DNA of 33,394 bases, from contig VGSW01000023.1 in NCBI GenBank assembly GCA_016874915.1, forward strand, positions 1 through 33,394. Direction: 5' to 3'. The DNA is from Deltaproteobacteria bacterium (GTDB lineage Bacteria; Desulfobacterota; Desulfobaccia; Desulfobaccales; 0-14-0-80-60-11). This document shows, in pieces, positions 8,215 to 24,827 of this stretch. The notes under the pieces were generated by a model. The model ran no database searches. It saw nothing but the letters and a program-made list of their open reading frames with translations, and was not told the DNA's origin. A program made the translations under genes and the position numbers. Numbering within the stretch: position 1 is the stretch's first letter; each line of letters begins with the position of its first letter.

Positions 8215-8330
8215 GGCAAGTCAGTTCACGGTTCAAAGTTGGCAGTTGGCAGTAGTAGGGACAGAACTAAAGCCGGGGCGGCGGAAATTCATTTTACCCA
8301 AAAATGTCCGCATTATCTTTACCGTCACTG

Positions 8331-9257: not shown

Positions 9258-9283
9258 CTGAAAACAGAAAACACCGAAAACTG
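9258..9283 (-). repeat. GTTTTC(G/T)G micro-repeat, copy 2
   Basis: On the minus strand the run reads CAGTTTTCGG, TGTTTTCTG, TTTTCAG and begins 2 bases after the stop codon of the CvpA-family gene. Same type and orientation rule as the run at 1840-1862. Confidence 0.7.
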
Positions 9284-9285
9284 TT

Positions 9286-9885
9286 TTACTTGCCTATTTC
9301 ATCCACCAGGCCTTTGAATGCCTTCTCCATCTCATGCAAGTCCATGCCGCCCCGGGGGCTACCGGCCTGGCCTTTGTCCTTCTTCCAGCCTTTCAAGAAG
9401 TCGTTGACCCGTTCCTTAAATTCCGGGGGCAGCAGTTCCAAGGCCTGGCGGGAAATATACATGAGTTGCGGCGCGGTGCGGGATTCCCGAAACAGGCGGG
9501 AGTCCTTAGGCAAAACCACTCCCAGGAACATCAAGGCGAATCCCAGGATCAGGGCCCCCTTGGCCAGAGCGAAAAAGGCCCCCAGGAGCCGGTCGAACAG
9601 GTCCAGGTAAAGATGATATAACAGGCGCTGCAAAAGATAGGCTCCCAGCCGGGTGAGCCAGTAAACCGCCACCAGCACCACCGCAAACGCCGCAATGCGG
9701 GCGTGAAGGGGATCTTTGAGCCACGGCTGCAGAAATAACGCCAGCCGCAGGTAAGTGTGGGCCGCCACCAGCACGCCTCCCACCACCCCGGCCAGCACCG
9801 CCAGCTCCTGGAAGAGGCCGCGGTAGTAACCCCGAAGGGTGATGAGGGCCAACAGCAGGACAATGCCCAGGTCCAGTAAATTCAT
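9286..9885 (-). CDS. CvpA-family membrane protein
   Basis: The 199-residue product has four predicted membrane segments in the first ~135 residues (LDLGIVLLLALITL, ELAVLAGVVGGVLVAAHTY, RIAAFAVVLVAVYWLT and a fourth in LGAFFALAKGALILGFALMFLGVVL), with RGYYRGLFQEL between the first two, a hallmark of CvpA. A polar cytoplasmic tail follows. CvpA proteins were named for colicin V production, and their general role is poorly defined. The ATG at 9883-9885 is chosen because GCAAGGAG lies 8 bases ahead and the protein then starts at MNLLDLGIVL like its family. An in-frame start 33 bases upstream lacks a ribosome binding site. Confidence 0.9.
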   Translation of the reverse strand: MNLLDLGIVLLLALITLRGYYRGLFQELAVLAGVVGGVLVAAHTYLRLALFLQPWLKDPLHARIAAFAVVLVAVYWLTRLGAYLLQRLLYHLYLDLFDRLLGAFFALAKGALILGFALMFLGVVLPKDSRLFRESRTAPQLMYISRQALELLPPEFKERVNDFLKGWKKDKGQAGSPRGGMDLHEMEKAFKGLVDEIGK

Positions 9886-9994
9886 GCCGCCGCTCCTTGC
9901 TTTTAGCACTCCTATCAAAAATGCCCTTCCCCGTCAACCCTGGGGGCTGCGGGAGTGAAAAGGGAAGAGAGGAAGGAAATGAGAGGAATTCGAT

Positions 9995-15717: not shown

Positions 15718-16118
15718 TTTGATCTCCGAAAGTTTCGTGTTTTGAGTTTTTTGATATTGCCTTTGCTCCGGAAAAGAACAGAACTTAGATTTATCAATGC
15801 TCAAGGGTGAACAAACTCTCCCTCCCCCTGGAGGGGGGAGGGCTGGGGTGGGGGTGGCGAAATTATTCAGGGTGGTGGATGCATATTTTCACCACCCTCC
15901 CCCAAACCCCCTCCCCTCAAGGGAGGGGGTTTTTCTGTGGTCCTCGGCCTACCCTGTTTGTTAGGGATATGCACTGAGGGCTGATTTCCAAATCCGGAGC
16001 TAAGGCAATAATCGAATTGAGTTTTTAGGGGAGGCTCTTGCAAAAATGGTTGTTTGTCATCCCGCCCCTTGCCCCCTCCCCCAACAACAACTTTTCAGGA
16101 CAGCTATTCATCCGATTA
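15718..16118. other. Intergenic region carrying a C/G-rich element
   Basis: This 401-base gap holds the double-hairpin element at 15819-15929 with a T5 run behind it. The remaining bases (15940-16118) show no gene, promoter pair or RNA that I can support. Confidence 0.6.
15819..15934. repeat. C/G-rich double-hairpin element, copy A
   Basis: The order is hairpin 1 (TCCCTCCCCC with GGGGGGAGGG), then GGGGTGGGGGTGG (15845-15857) which pairs with CCACCCTCCCCC (15892-15903), then hairpin 2 (CCCCCTCCC with GGGAGGGGG, ending 15929) and T5. The two hairpins sit at the base of a longer stem, a cross-like fold. Copies B and C (18621-18733, 32326-32440) have the same order and orientation. Confidence 0.8.
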
Positions 16119-16787: not shown

Positions 16788-16870
16788 CTCTTCACCGTAC
16801 AGTTTATTCTGTTTTCACTGTCAAATACTACAAACTCGTCATGTAACTTATTGATAATCAAGAACATTTA

Positions 16871-16902
16871 ACCGAAAACTAAAAACTTAAAACTTAAAAC
16901 GG
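16871..16902 (-). repeat. GTTTTC(G/T)G micro-repeat, copy 3 (degenerate)
   Basis: On the minus strand the run reads CCGTTTTAAG, TTTTAAG, TTTTTAG, TTTTCGGT and begins 2 bases after the mlaD stop. The units carry AAG or TAG in place of CGG or CTG, so it is a weaker member of the family. Confidence 0.55.
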
Positions 16903-16904
16903 TA

Positions 16905-17780
16905 TTATTCATTCCACCTTTTTGGGGGCGGCTTGCCGAAGAGAAGATCGGGAGGACGGTCGGATATTCTTTCCAAGAATTTATCCAGGGCCTCCGAAGC
17001 CCGGCGCAGGTTGGCGGTGGCAGACTCGGCCTCCCGGCCGATTTCCGAAAGTTTCATGGCCTGAATCTCCTCCTTGACATTGGCCACTAGGGTCCGAAGA
17101 ACCTTTAAAGTTTCCCGGGATTCCACCAGGACATCTTCCGCCTTCCCGCTGGCGATGATCTTATCCACCCGTTTGGTAAGATCGTCCAGATTAGCCGCGG
17201 TCGCCCCTAGTTTCACCAGAATTTTTTCCATTTCTTTGCCTTTAAACAAATCTTCTACAGCCTTACCGGTGGCTTTAAGCTGGTCGGAGATCCCCCGGGT
17301 GTCAATCTGCTCAAGTTTGGCCACCACGCCGTCGATCTTGGAAAGTATTCTCTGGATCTCGGAGGGGCGGGACGGGATTACGGGATATTCCGAGGGGAAG
17401 GTTAACTTGGGGGAAAGGTCCGGTTCGTCGGGTTTCCGGCGGTCCAGTTCGATGAACATAATGCCGGTGATCCCCGCAGCCTTCAATTGGGCCACGGTCT
17501 TGCCGGCCAGGTCGTCCCTCAAATTCACTTTGATTACTACGCCGATGAGTCTATTATCGGGGGCCACCCTGATCTTTTCCACCCGGCCCACATCCACTCC
17601 CCGGTACTTGACGTTGGAATCCCCTTGCAGGCCCTGCACCGACTCATCAAAATAGGTGATATAGGTTTGGCCCTTCTGAAAGAAGCTGGTGGCGCCCACC
17701 CAGATGATGGCGGCCACTCCCAGGAAAAAACCCAGGATCACAAAGAGGCCCAGCATAAAGTTGGCGGTTTTTTTGGCCAT
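16905..17780 (-). CDS. mlaD: MlaD-like MCE-domain protein
   Basis: The 291-residue product has one N-terminal membrane anchor (FMLGLFVILGFFLGVAAIIWVGAT), then one MCE domain (about 38-115) with YFDESVQGLQGDSNVKYRGVDVGRVEKIRV and the family's GIMFIEL strand. A long helical, coiled-coil tail follows (about 145-275). MlaD-type proteins form a hexameric periplasmic ring that binds phospholipid and sits on the MlaE permease. Its ATG follows the mlaF stop by one base, so the two are translationally coupled. AGGGGAAC lies ahead of the start, inside the mlaF end. Confidence 0.93.
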   Translation of the reverse strand: MAKKTANFMLGLFVILGFFLGVAAIIWVGATSFFQKGQTYITYFDESVQGLQGDSNVKYRGVDVGRVEKIRVAPDNRLIGVVIKVNLRDDLAGKTVAQLKAAGITGIMFIELDRRKPDEPDLSPKLTFPSEYPVIPSRPSEIQRILSKIDGVVAKLEQIDTRGISDQLKATGKAVEDLFKGKEMEKILVKLGATAANLDDLTKRVDKIIASGKAEDVLVESRETLKVLRTLVANVKEEIQAMKLSEIGREAESATANLRRASEALDKFLERISDRPPDLLFGKPPPKRWNE

Positions 17781-22042: not shown

Positions 22043-22074
22043 ACCGAAAACAGAAAACAGAAAACAGAAAACTG
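22043..22074 (-). repeat. GTTTTC(G/T)G micro-repeat, copy 4
   Basis: The cleanest copy: on the minus strand CAG is followed by three TTTTCTG units and TTTTCGG. It begins 2 bases after the mlaE stop codon (22077-22079). Confidence 0.8.
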
Positions 22075-22076
22075 CA

Positions 22077-23228
22077 TCAGATGCCCAAATAGTGAAAAGC
22101 CAGGGCAAAGGCCGAGTCCGTGACGATGATGAGAAACAGGGCCGCGACCACCGCGGAGGTGGTGGCGGACCCCACCGCTTCGGCTCCCCCTCGCACCTGA
22201 AAGCCTCGCTGGCAGCCGATGCCGGCGATGAGCACGGCAAAGACCGCCGCTTTGATGAGGCTGGGGATGATATCCATGAGGGTCAGGCTCGCCTGGGTAT
22301 CCTTCAAGTAGGTGTAGGCCGTCAAATCCAGCCCCACGACCCCCACCACCAGGCCGCCGGCGATGCCGAAGATGTCGGCGTATAGGGTGAGGATGGGCAC
22401 CACCACCATGGCCGCCAGGACTTTGGGAAGGGCCAGGAAGCGGATGGGGTCAAACCCCATGGTGATGAGGGCGTCCACTTCCTCGTTGACCTTCATGGTG
22501 CCGATTTCCGCGGCAAAGGCCGACCCCGAGCGCCCGGCCACCAGGATGGCGGTCATTATGGGTCCCAGCTCCTTGACCACCGCGATGGCCAGGAGGGGGG
22601 CCACGTAAACGTTGGCCCCGAATTGCTTGAGCTGCAGGGAGGACATGAAGGCCAGGATGAGACCCAAAAGGAAGCTGATGAGGCCCACAATGGGCAGCCC
22701 ATCCACGCCGGCGCGTTTCATATAGAAGGCCACATCATCCCAGCGGACGGACCGGGGATGCAGAAAGGCGTAAGCCAGGGCTCTCAGGAGTTCTCCCAGA
22801 AACGTCGTCACCTGCAACAGGTCTTCGGCGAACCGGCGGCCGGCCGCCCCCAACTGCTCCAGGAGGCCGGCTTCATCCCGGCCGGCGATGAGAGGGGGCG
22901 CCGCGAGGTCTTTCCGGTCCAGCAATTCCATGATCCCCCGGGCCATTTCCGGGAGATGGGCGAATTGAAAACCCATGGACCGGGATAGCGCCTCCTGCTT
23001 CAGTTTTAAGAGCGCCAGGGCGCCGGCGCTGTCCAGATAATCCACTTGGGACAGGTCCACGATGAGCCTGGCCGGGGCCATCTCCTTGAGGCGCGCCTCA
23101 ACTTCGGAGTTCAAGGACCTCAGATTCTCCAGGGCTATCCGGCCCGAAAGGGAGAAAATGACTTCCTGACCTTTCTCGCCAGCAAGCTTCAAGGAATAGT
23201 GGAGGGGAGGGGCAGCTCTTCTCTTCAT
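22077..23228 (-). CDS. mlaE: MlaE-like permease with N-terminal STAS domain
   Basis: The 383-residue product has a STAS-like domain (about 1-105) with LIVDLSQVDYLDSAGALALLKL, then the MlaE/YrbE permease (about 140-383) with five to six membrane segments. Typical family stretches are VGLISFLLGLILAF, VVKELGPIMTAILVAGRSGSAFAAEIGTMKVNEEVDAL and GGAEAVGSATTSAVV. In E. coli the STAS protein (MlaB) is separate; fusion with the permease is common in other phyla. It would be the membrane core of the phospholipid transporter with MlaF and MlaD. TTAGGCGGAG lies right before the ATG. Confidence 0.94.
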   Translation of the reverse strand: MKRRAAPPLHYSLKLAGEKGQEVIFSLSGRIALENLRSLNSEVEARLKEMAPARLIVDLSQVDYLDSAGALALLKLKQEALSRSMGFQFAHLPEMARGIMELLDRKDLAAPPLIAGRDEAGLLEQLGAAGRRFAEDLLQVTTFLGELLRALAYAFLHPRSVRWDDVAFYMKRAGVDGLPIVGLISFLLGLILAFMSSLQLKQFGANVYVAPLLAIAVVKELGPIMTAILVAGRSGSAFAAEIGTMKVNEEVDALITMGFDPIRFLALPKVLAAMVVVPILTLYADIFGIAGGLVVGVVGLDLTAYTYLKDTQASLTLMDIIPSLIKAAVFAVLIAGIGCQRGFQVRGGAEAVGSATTSAVVAALFLIIVTDSAFALAFHYLGI

Positions 23229-23890: not shown

Positions 23891-23910
23891 ATCGAAAACC
23901 GAAAACCATC
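23891..23910 (-). repeat. GTTTTC(G/T)G micro-repeat, copy 5
   Basis: On the minus strand GATGG is followed by TTTTCGG and TTTTCGAT. It lies 5 bases after the prenyltransferase stop codon. Confidence 0.6.
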
Positions 23911-23915
23911 TCTCC

Positions 23916-24827
23916 TCAACGCCACCAGGCCGCATACAGCAAGGCCAAAGTGAGGGTCAGGCCCATGACCGCGTGGGTCTGGATGGTCAGCGCTTGGGCC
24001 GGGATGAATTCCGGTTCCGTGGGCGTGGCGCGCCAGGAGATGCTGATGGCCTTCAGGGCCAGGGGGAGGGCCGCCAGCCCCGCCAGGATGAGGTCCGGGA
24101 GCCGGAAGACTTCCATCAGGAGAAAAAGGCTGGCAAAGGGCGCCAGCATTAAGGCGGCAAATACCTGCCGGGCCCGGGCCAGGCCCAGGCGCACCACTAG
24201 TTGGCGCTTGGCCGCGGCCGCGTCCGCCTCCAGGTCGGGAAATTCGTTGATCCAGAGGATGGCGGTGATGAGAAAACCCAGAGGCAGGCCCACGGCCAGA
24301 CCCATAGGGCTGAGGCTGCCGGTCTGGACATAATAGGCCCCCCAATGGAGGGGAGGGCCGAAAGCCATAAAAATGGTGAATTCCCCCCATCCGGCGCTCA
24401 TGAGCTGCATGGGCGCGGCGGAATAAAGATACCCGGCGGCCAGACCCACCAATCCCAGGAAGGCTACCCCGGGGCGTCCCAGGTAGATGAGGGCCAGGCC
24501 GCAGGCCACCCCCAGCCCCAGGAAGAAGTAGGCCAGGTTGCGCACCGCGGCGGCGCCCATTTCCTGGTTTTGAATGACCCGGCTGCCACCGCTGAAGGGA
24601 GTGAAGTGGATATTGAGAGGGTCGCTGCCAAAGGAGTCGTAATAGTCATTGAGCAGGTTGGCCCCCAGGTGCAAAGCTCCCACCCCTAACACGGTGAGGA
24701 GAAAAAGGCCGGGACGCCAGGACCCCTGGGTCCAATAGGCCAGGGCCGTGGCCACTGCCACGGGGAAGAGCGACCCGGTGAGGAATGGCAGGCGCAAGGC
24801 CCGGATGTTAATGCTTAGAAACCCCAT
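23916..24827 (-). CDS. UbiA-family prenyltransferase, MenA-like
   Basis: The 303-residue product is a membrane protein with about eight to nine hydrophobic segments. It has the two Asp-rich motifs of the family: NLLNDYYDSFGSDP (about 58-71) and NEFPDLEADAAAAKRQLVVRLG (about 194-215). The first matches MenA, which adds a polyprenyl chain to 1,4-dihydroxy-2-naphthoate in menaquinone synthesis; the HFTPFSGGSRVIQ segment also fits MenA-type enzymes. Substrate cannot be fixed from sequence alone. No other quinone genes are in the window. A consensus sigma70 promoter lies at 24861-24889. Confidence 0.85.
   Translation of the reverse strand: MGFLSINIRALRLPFLTGSLFPVAVATALAYWTQGSWRPGLFLLTVLGVGALHLGANLLNDYYDSFGSDPLNIHFTPFSGGSRVIQNQEMGAAAVRNLAYFFLGLGVACGLALIYLGRPGVAFLGLVGLAAGYLYSAAPMQLMSAGWGEFTIFMAFGPPLHWGAYYVQTGSLSPMGLAVGLPLGFLITAILWINEFPDLEADAAAAKRQLVVRLGLARARQVFAALMLAPFASLFLLMEVFRLPDLILAGLAALPLALKAISISWRATPTEPEFIPAQALTIQTHAVMGLTLTLALLYAAWWR

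Follow-up and report, generated by a model that had tools for sequence, protein, structure and literature searches.

What are the short runs of T-rich 7-nt units that lie just past five stop codons in the 33,394-nt stretch of DNA analysed here (the window)? The five runs named by the first-pass annotation were all present, each at 2-6 bases from the stop codon of the called ORF that it follows, and in all five the T-rich strand was the ORF's own strand, for ORFs on both the + and the - strand. These runs and a sixth heptamer array of a different unit are given below.

1840 to 1862, + strand: array (TTTTCGG)2-TTTTCTG, 6 nt past the TGA stop at 1831-1833
8237 to 8253, + strand: (AGTTGGC)n heptamer array of a different unit, mid-spacer between 8157 and 8331
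9258 to 9283, - strand: degenerate array GTTTTCGGTGTTTTCTGTTTTC, 2 nt past the stop of a CvpA-like (Colicin_V) gene (9286-9918)
16871 to 16902, - strand: array GTTTTAAGTTTTAAGTTTTTAGTTTTCGG, 2 nt past the stop of an MCE/MlaD-like gene (16905-17780) in an mla operon
22043 to 22074, - strand: array (TTTTCTG)3-TTTTCGG followed by TAAAAAGG, 2 nt past the stop of an MlaE-like permease gene (22077-23228)
23891 to 23910, - strand: two-unit array GGTTTTCGGTTTTCG, 5 nt past the stop of a UbiA/MenA-like gene (23916-24827)

The array at 1840-1862 lay in the setting of a convergent gene pair. The 7-nt register was imperfect at 9258-9283, the units at 16871-16902 were mostly TTTTAAG and not TTTTCKG, and 23891-23910 comprised only about two units. 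No known RNA family was found in the window. Separately, the first ORF of the window starts within a coding tandem repeat (positions 1-406, periods of about 51-54 bp and 186 bp, CAGCAACAG-type), which is unrelated to the heptamers.

The genome of the window (G000) is a 3.73-Mb draft of 302 contigs, and a sister genome (G001) was used beside it. The TTTTCKG doublet (TTTTCKGTTTTCKG) was detected at 400 sites in G000 (228 + 172), whereas the reversed control pattern gave 0 + 0, an excess beyond chance. One searched sister species of the genus contained 439 matches, the rest of the family usually 16-143, and the doublet was present in two families of the order Desulfobaccales, with few or none in some genera of the family and in the second family's single-contig genome G024. 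When 297 genomes of the phylum were scanned, counts outside the Desulfobaccales were near the control level; other Deltaproteobacteria showed a weak period-7 excess (11 vs 0-2). The nearest named relatives of the MlaE-like protein were from Desulfobaccales, Desulfobacca, Syntrophales and further deltaproteobacterial MAGs, and the genome was placed in the Desulfobaccales on the strength of these relatives.

The placement of the arrays was analysed in 20-kb stretches amounting to 0.8 Mb of G000 and 0.66 Mb of G001, with genes from our own gene caller; 10 of 78 arrays fell "inside" called genes, which may reflect mistaken gene prediction. Within 10 nt of a stop codon, 19 arrays in G000 had the T-rich strand as the coding strand, compared with 2.7 expected from random placement and strand (at most 10 in 1000 placements), and 13 in G001 compared with 1.8; the opposite orientation was found 0 times in either genome. 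Enrichment within 10 bases 3' of stop codons, together with a strand bias, had been proposed as the test of the placement claim, and as both were found in G000 and G001, the claim stands.

Mirror-image arrays, with the A-rich strand coding, were also located just upstream of start codons. Within 30 nt of the start codons, whose calls are approximate, 10 arrays in G000 and 12 in G001 had this orientation, and 1 and 0, respectively, the other. With the pattern GTTTTCNG, 38 arrays pointed inward to the spacer and 4 outward in the first 40 nt after stops, and 23 and 3, respectively, in the first 40 nt before starts. When the related copies in G000 and G001 were merged, 60 independent clusters remained, with 39 inward and 6 outward at stops and 14 and 1 at starts (P ~4e-10). 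The arrays before starts thus indicated that the rule concerns the gene edge, from which the T-rich strand with its C-N-G phase runs into the spacer. A signal specific to stop codons was ruled out as the whole story by these mirror arrays; the stop-codon reading is too narrow, and the polarity rule holds at both gene ends.

In a test made irrespective of unit, 84 of 193 arrays were no more than 15 nt from a gene edge (48.8 expected). Stop edges were preferred over start edges (65 vs 19 arrays), and at some genes a role in the 3' UTR is therefore conceivable. Adjacent arrays formed convergent (><) pairs in 18 of 25 cases in G000 and 13 of 18 in G001, and the spacing of the arms was irregular, from touching up to 858 nt. 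The two arms of one spacer shared unit sequence above chance in G000 (P 0.0017), but this was not reproduced in G001 (P 0.17).

Tandem repeats in the spacers of G000 comprised 144 of period 7, while periods 4-6 and 9-12 gave 0-5; G001 contained 99 of period 7 vs 0-9 for the other periods, and period 7 exceeded the other periods among 4-12 in four genomes. Period-8 spacer repeats were over-represented in G000 too (27, with units such as AAAAGGTT), far below period 7. TTTTCKG was the commonest among many heptamer units. The dominant units were TTTTCGG, TTTTCTG, TTTTCAG and CAGTNNN, and the others included CAGTGAG, CAGTGAT, CAGTAAT, CAGCTTT, CAGCTAT, CAGGTTT, CAGGTGT and TTAGCGG; single arrays often mixed several units, with the C-N-G phase retained. 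Units without T4 or A4 also followed the inward rule, with 35 inward to 2 outward in G000 and 22 to 1 in G001, the latter being the cleaner test because the C[AG]G phase was derived from G000. The motif TTTTCNGTDAAAA was rejected as an ancestral seed, as it showed no excess in array-free relatives.

Exact TTTTCKG runs of two, three, four and five units numbered approximately 150, 40, 54 and 2 in G000, and the drop past four units was seen across most of the family. Arrays were located at 6 of 120 contig termini, compared with 1.2% of internal windows, and part of this drop may stem from an assembly limit near 35 bp. A biological ceiling of four units is suggested by the counts, yet it is confounded by short-read assembly.

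The arrays at 22043 and 16871 were surrounded by genes of an mla-type operon, namely those for an MlaE permease, a large protein, an ABC ATPase, an MCE protein and an ABC_trans_aux lipoprotein. Two of the five window sites thus probably sit within one transcript, and their position inside the operon argues against terminators. No G+C-rich hairpin with a U-tract was listed at the 16871, 22043 and 23891 arrays, and folding of all five window sites was no better than that of shuffled sequences. The intrinsic terminator was rejected on the basis of the hairpin scan and the two operon sites.

Comparison with relatives detected changes in place. At L060 11923, among few orthologous pairs, the array was two units longer than that of the G001 orthologue while the adjoining core was conserved, and at L071 3526 the position of the array was conserved and its units differed from those of the orthologue. 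After the mlaE stop preceding the 22043 array, the relative L080 carried an array of other units. In the relative L081 this spacer measured about 10 bp and contained no array, and the junction was likewise short and array-free in several relatives at a greater distance.

Some of the arrays are part of a dispersed element. Family A is a non-coding element of about 105 bp with terminal inverted repeats TAATACC...GGTAT(T/A)A, present in 16 copies in 800 kb of G000, and an array was located just inside the left end in 15 of these 16 copies. The window contains one diverged example.

16814 to 16873, - strand: diverged family A MITE-like core, 74.6% identity over 63 nt, E 0.003, directly inside the 16871 array

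This core and the array together begin TAATACCG, whose TAA is the stop codon of the MCE/MlaD-like gene. Approximately 15 arrays in 800 kb belong to family A, including 16871-16902, and most lie outside; the terminal inverted repeats of a MITE were found in family A only and not at most arrays. No consistent target-site duplication was seen by eye in the family A flanks. The earlier suggestion of a targeted insertion product was consequently borne out for these approximately 15 arrays and not for the majority.

Two other dispersed elements were observed, a second MITE-like family of about 110 bp (copies 90-100% identical, long inverted ends TATTACTCGGAGC...GCTCCGAGTAATA, a GC-rich hairpin inside) and an element of about 250 bp (ends TCGATTATTGCYTTYGCTCCGG...GGCAATAATCGA, CCCTCCCCC palindromes inside).

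L168 8081-8453, L063 13547-14290, L069 2425-2728, L077 4395-5004 and others: copies of the second family of about 110 bp
Window 15718-16118 (upstream of 15717), L169 3544-4311 and L177 14374-14681: copies of the element of about 250 bp

RAYT-like Y1 transposase genes were also found, at L291, L295 and L296 in G000 and at L303 and L305 in G002 and G008, with REP-type palindromes in their flanks (e.g. GTGGCACAGGCCTCTGGCCTGTG). Twenty RAYT-like loci were examined, and among those with a called gene a period-7 array flanked only two, with atypical units. The Y1_Tnp counts loosely tracked those of the heptamer arrays across relatives, and Y1 genes numbered zero in three genomes of one array-free genus. 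A REP/RAYT origin was rejected, as the RAYT-like genes adjoin palindromes and not heptamer arrays, and no transposase family linked to the arrays was found among the RAYT-like genes examined.

What, then, produced the arrays? Bacteria possess a class of heptanucleotide short simple-sequence repeats, STRR/LSSR, and both the excess of period 7 and a copy change by a 7-nt step between relatives (L060 11923) were found here. The arrays are probably, with moderate confidence on our part, repeats of this class that grow and change as 7-nt units are duplicated and lost at the borders between gene and spacer. Units would be gained and lost by slippage-type duplication, and the growth zone may be the few unconstrained bases that separate the gene edge from the conserved spacer core, such as a promoter, a leader or an inserted element. 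Arrays would persist at the edges since this zone is tolerant, mostly they would not be functional signals for the preceding gene, and the MITE-like element of about 105 bp would spread part of the set. Two observations stand against this explanation. Pure slippage predicts no gene-relative polarity, while the observed polarity was strong, and it predicts a smooth fall in copy number, which differs from the counts of two- to five-unit TTTTCKG runs. The likeliest source of the polarity would be a polar spacer element with inverted ends, or a hairpin, with the units growing on its arms, and not transcription termination.

The inverted ends could also be the whole explanation, with the arrays forming the ends of MITE-like elements ("array > core < array") and the lone arrays being remnants. 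The position inside the left end of family A, the predominance of convergent pairs and the unit sharing between arms in G000, though not in G001, are consistent with it. We nevertheless consider this unlikely, given that most arrays had no recognisable adjoining element, the arm spacing was irregular, orthologous arrays change unit sequence or number in place, and neither a consistent target-site duplication nor a linked transposase family came to light. The 3'-end signal offered by the first-pass annotation, in which U-rich (UUUUCGG)n past the stop would terminate transcription, bind an RNA-binding protein or protect the mRNA 3' end, fared similarly. Its premises held, as the enrichment near stops with 0 arrays on the opposite strand was seen both in the 0.8-Mb sample of G000 and in G001, and stop edges exceeded start edges by about 3:1. 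The signal was not the best reading of them, however. Mirror-image arrays precede start codons, heptamers that are not T-rich obey the same inward rule, arrays occur within the mla operon, no terminator hairpin was listed at the scanned sites and folding did not surpass shuffles, only about 3% of genes have a TTTTCKG array within 10 nt of the stop, and arrays are missing from some genera of the same family. A 3'-end signal is therefore judged improbable.

Still more improbable in our estimation is a DNA or RNA structure selected at gene borders, either hairpins of convergent arms or pairing of (CCGAAAA)n with (UUUUCGG)n between UTRs. The arrays of the 5' and 3' sides are complementary by construction, copy number drops sharply past four units, four being also the commonest size in Xanthomonas, and the geometry equals that of the Xanthomonas and Nostoc repeats, for which G-quadruplexes were proposed (PMC4692102). 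On the other hand, a quadruplex requires G-tracts, which TTTTCNG and CAGTNNN units do not have, folding at the five sites of the window did not surpass that of shuffled sequences, and many arrays are solitary.

The arrays were compared with repeats known from other bacteria. The STRR of Calothrix and Nostoc are tandem heptanucleotides scattered over intergenic regions, and one genome contains several unit sequences; the Desulfobaccales arrays resemble them in being dispersed heptanucleotides of multiple units, and the lineage and the unit set differ. REPs are palindromes adjoining a tetranucleotide, and the arrays share with REP/BIME their shortness, their dispersal over intergenic positions near gene ends and the frequent inverted pairing; besides the heptamers, G000 also contains true palindromic repeats and RAYT-like genes.

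The closest description is that of Rehm and colleagues, who reported the heptamers GGGAATC in Xanthomonas and GGGGA(C/T)T in Nostoc/Anabaena, present in few units, mostly intergenic and dispersed over the genome, and who also mentioned the Calothrix heptanucleotides (PMC4692102). Those repeats are closer to the ORF on the array's 5' side whatever the ORF orientation, and they occupy the coding strand past stops and the non-coding strand ahead of starts; in Xanthomonas they form convergent inverted pairs, four units is the commonest size, and the location is conserved between species while length and sequence vary (PMC4692102). The Desulfobaccales arrays share the placement and polarity rule, the 7-nt unit, the small number of units and the intergenic position with both, and the convergent pairs with Xanthomonas. 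The approximately 54 runs of exactly four units vs 40 of three and 2 of five or more in G000 could reflect a preference for four units, but short-read assembly may truncate arrays of at least 35 bp. The Xanthomonas and Nostoc units are G-rich, form G-quadruplexes in vitro and were discussed as such, with the function left open (PMC4692102), whereas the Desulfobaccales units (TTTTCGG, TTTTCTG, TTTTCAG and dozens more) are mostly unable to form them, and the arrays differ further in being partly embedded in a MITE-like element of about 105 bp. The Desulfobaccales arrays are a non-G-rich version, new here, of the heptamer repeat known from Xanthomonas and Nostoc.

MacGregor described TAACTGA direct repeats in Beggiatoaceae, some cyanobacteria and Bacteroidetes, with 2-6 copies in intergenic positions near gene edges; in Beggiatoaceae TAACTGA is dominant and lies upstream of starts, and related heptamers are rare (PMC4679880). 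Where that paper cites earlier work, 7 nt is named as the most frequent of the long repeat periods in most prokaryotes, with polymerase slippage suggested (PMC4679880). TAACTGA before starts corresponds to TCAGTTA running inward on the antisense strand, the same polarity as in the Desulfobaccales. (TAACTGA)n also occurs among the arrays analysed here (L164 18937-18956) but is rare, and the many units and the favoured stop edges are unlike the Beggiatoaceae.

Bacterial heptamer repeats have so far been treated one lineage at a time and explained separately, by G-quadruplexes, translational regulation or polymerase slippage. The same geometry with T-rich or mixed units that cannot form a quadruplex, and with dozens of units in one genome, uncouples the placement rule from sequence or structure, and raises a general and testable question: why seven, and why always away from the gene? 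It is conceivable, if doubtful, that one process independent of the unit makes or maintains the polar 7-nt border arrays of Desulfobaccales, Xanthomonas, Nostoc and Beggiatoaceae, with the C/T-N-G phase inward and a ceiling of about four units. Such a shared process would amount to a general mechanism, either building borders or linked to replication, that explanations specific to G-quadruplexes or translation have missed.
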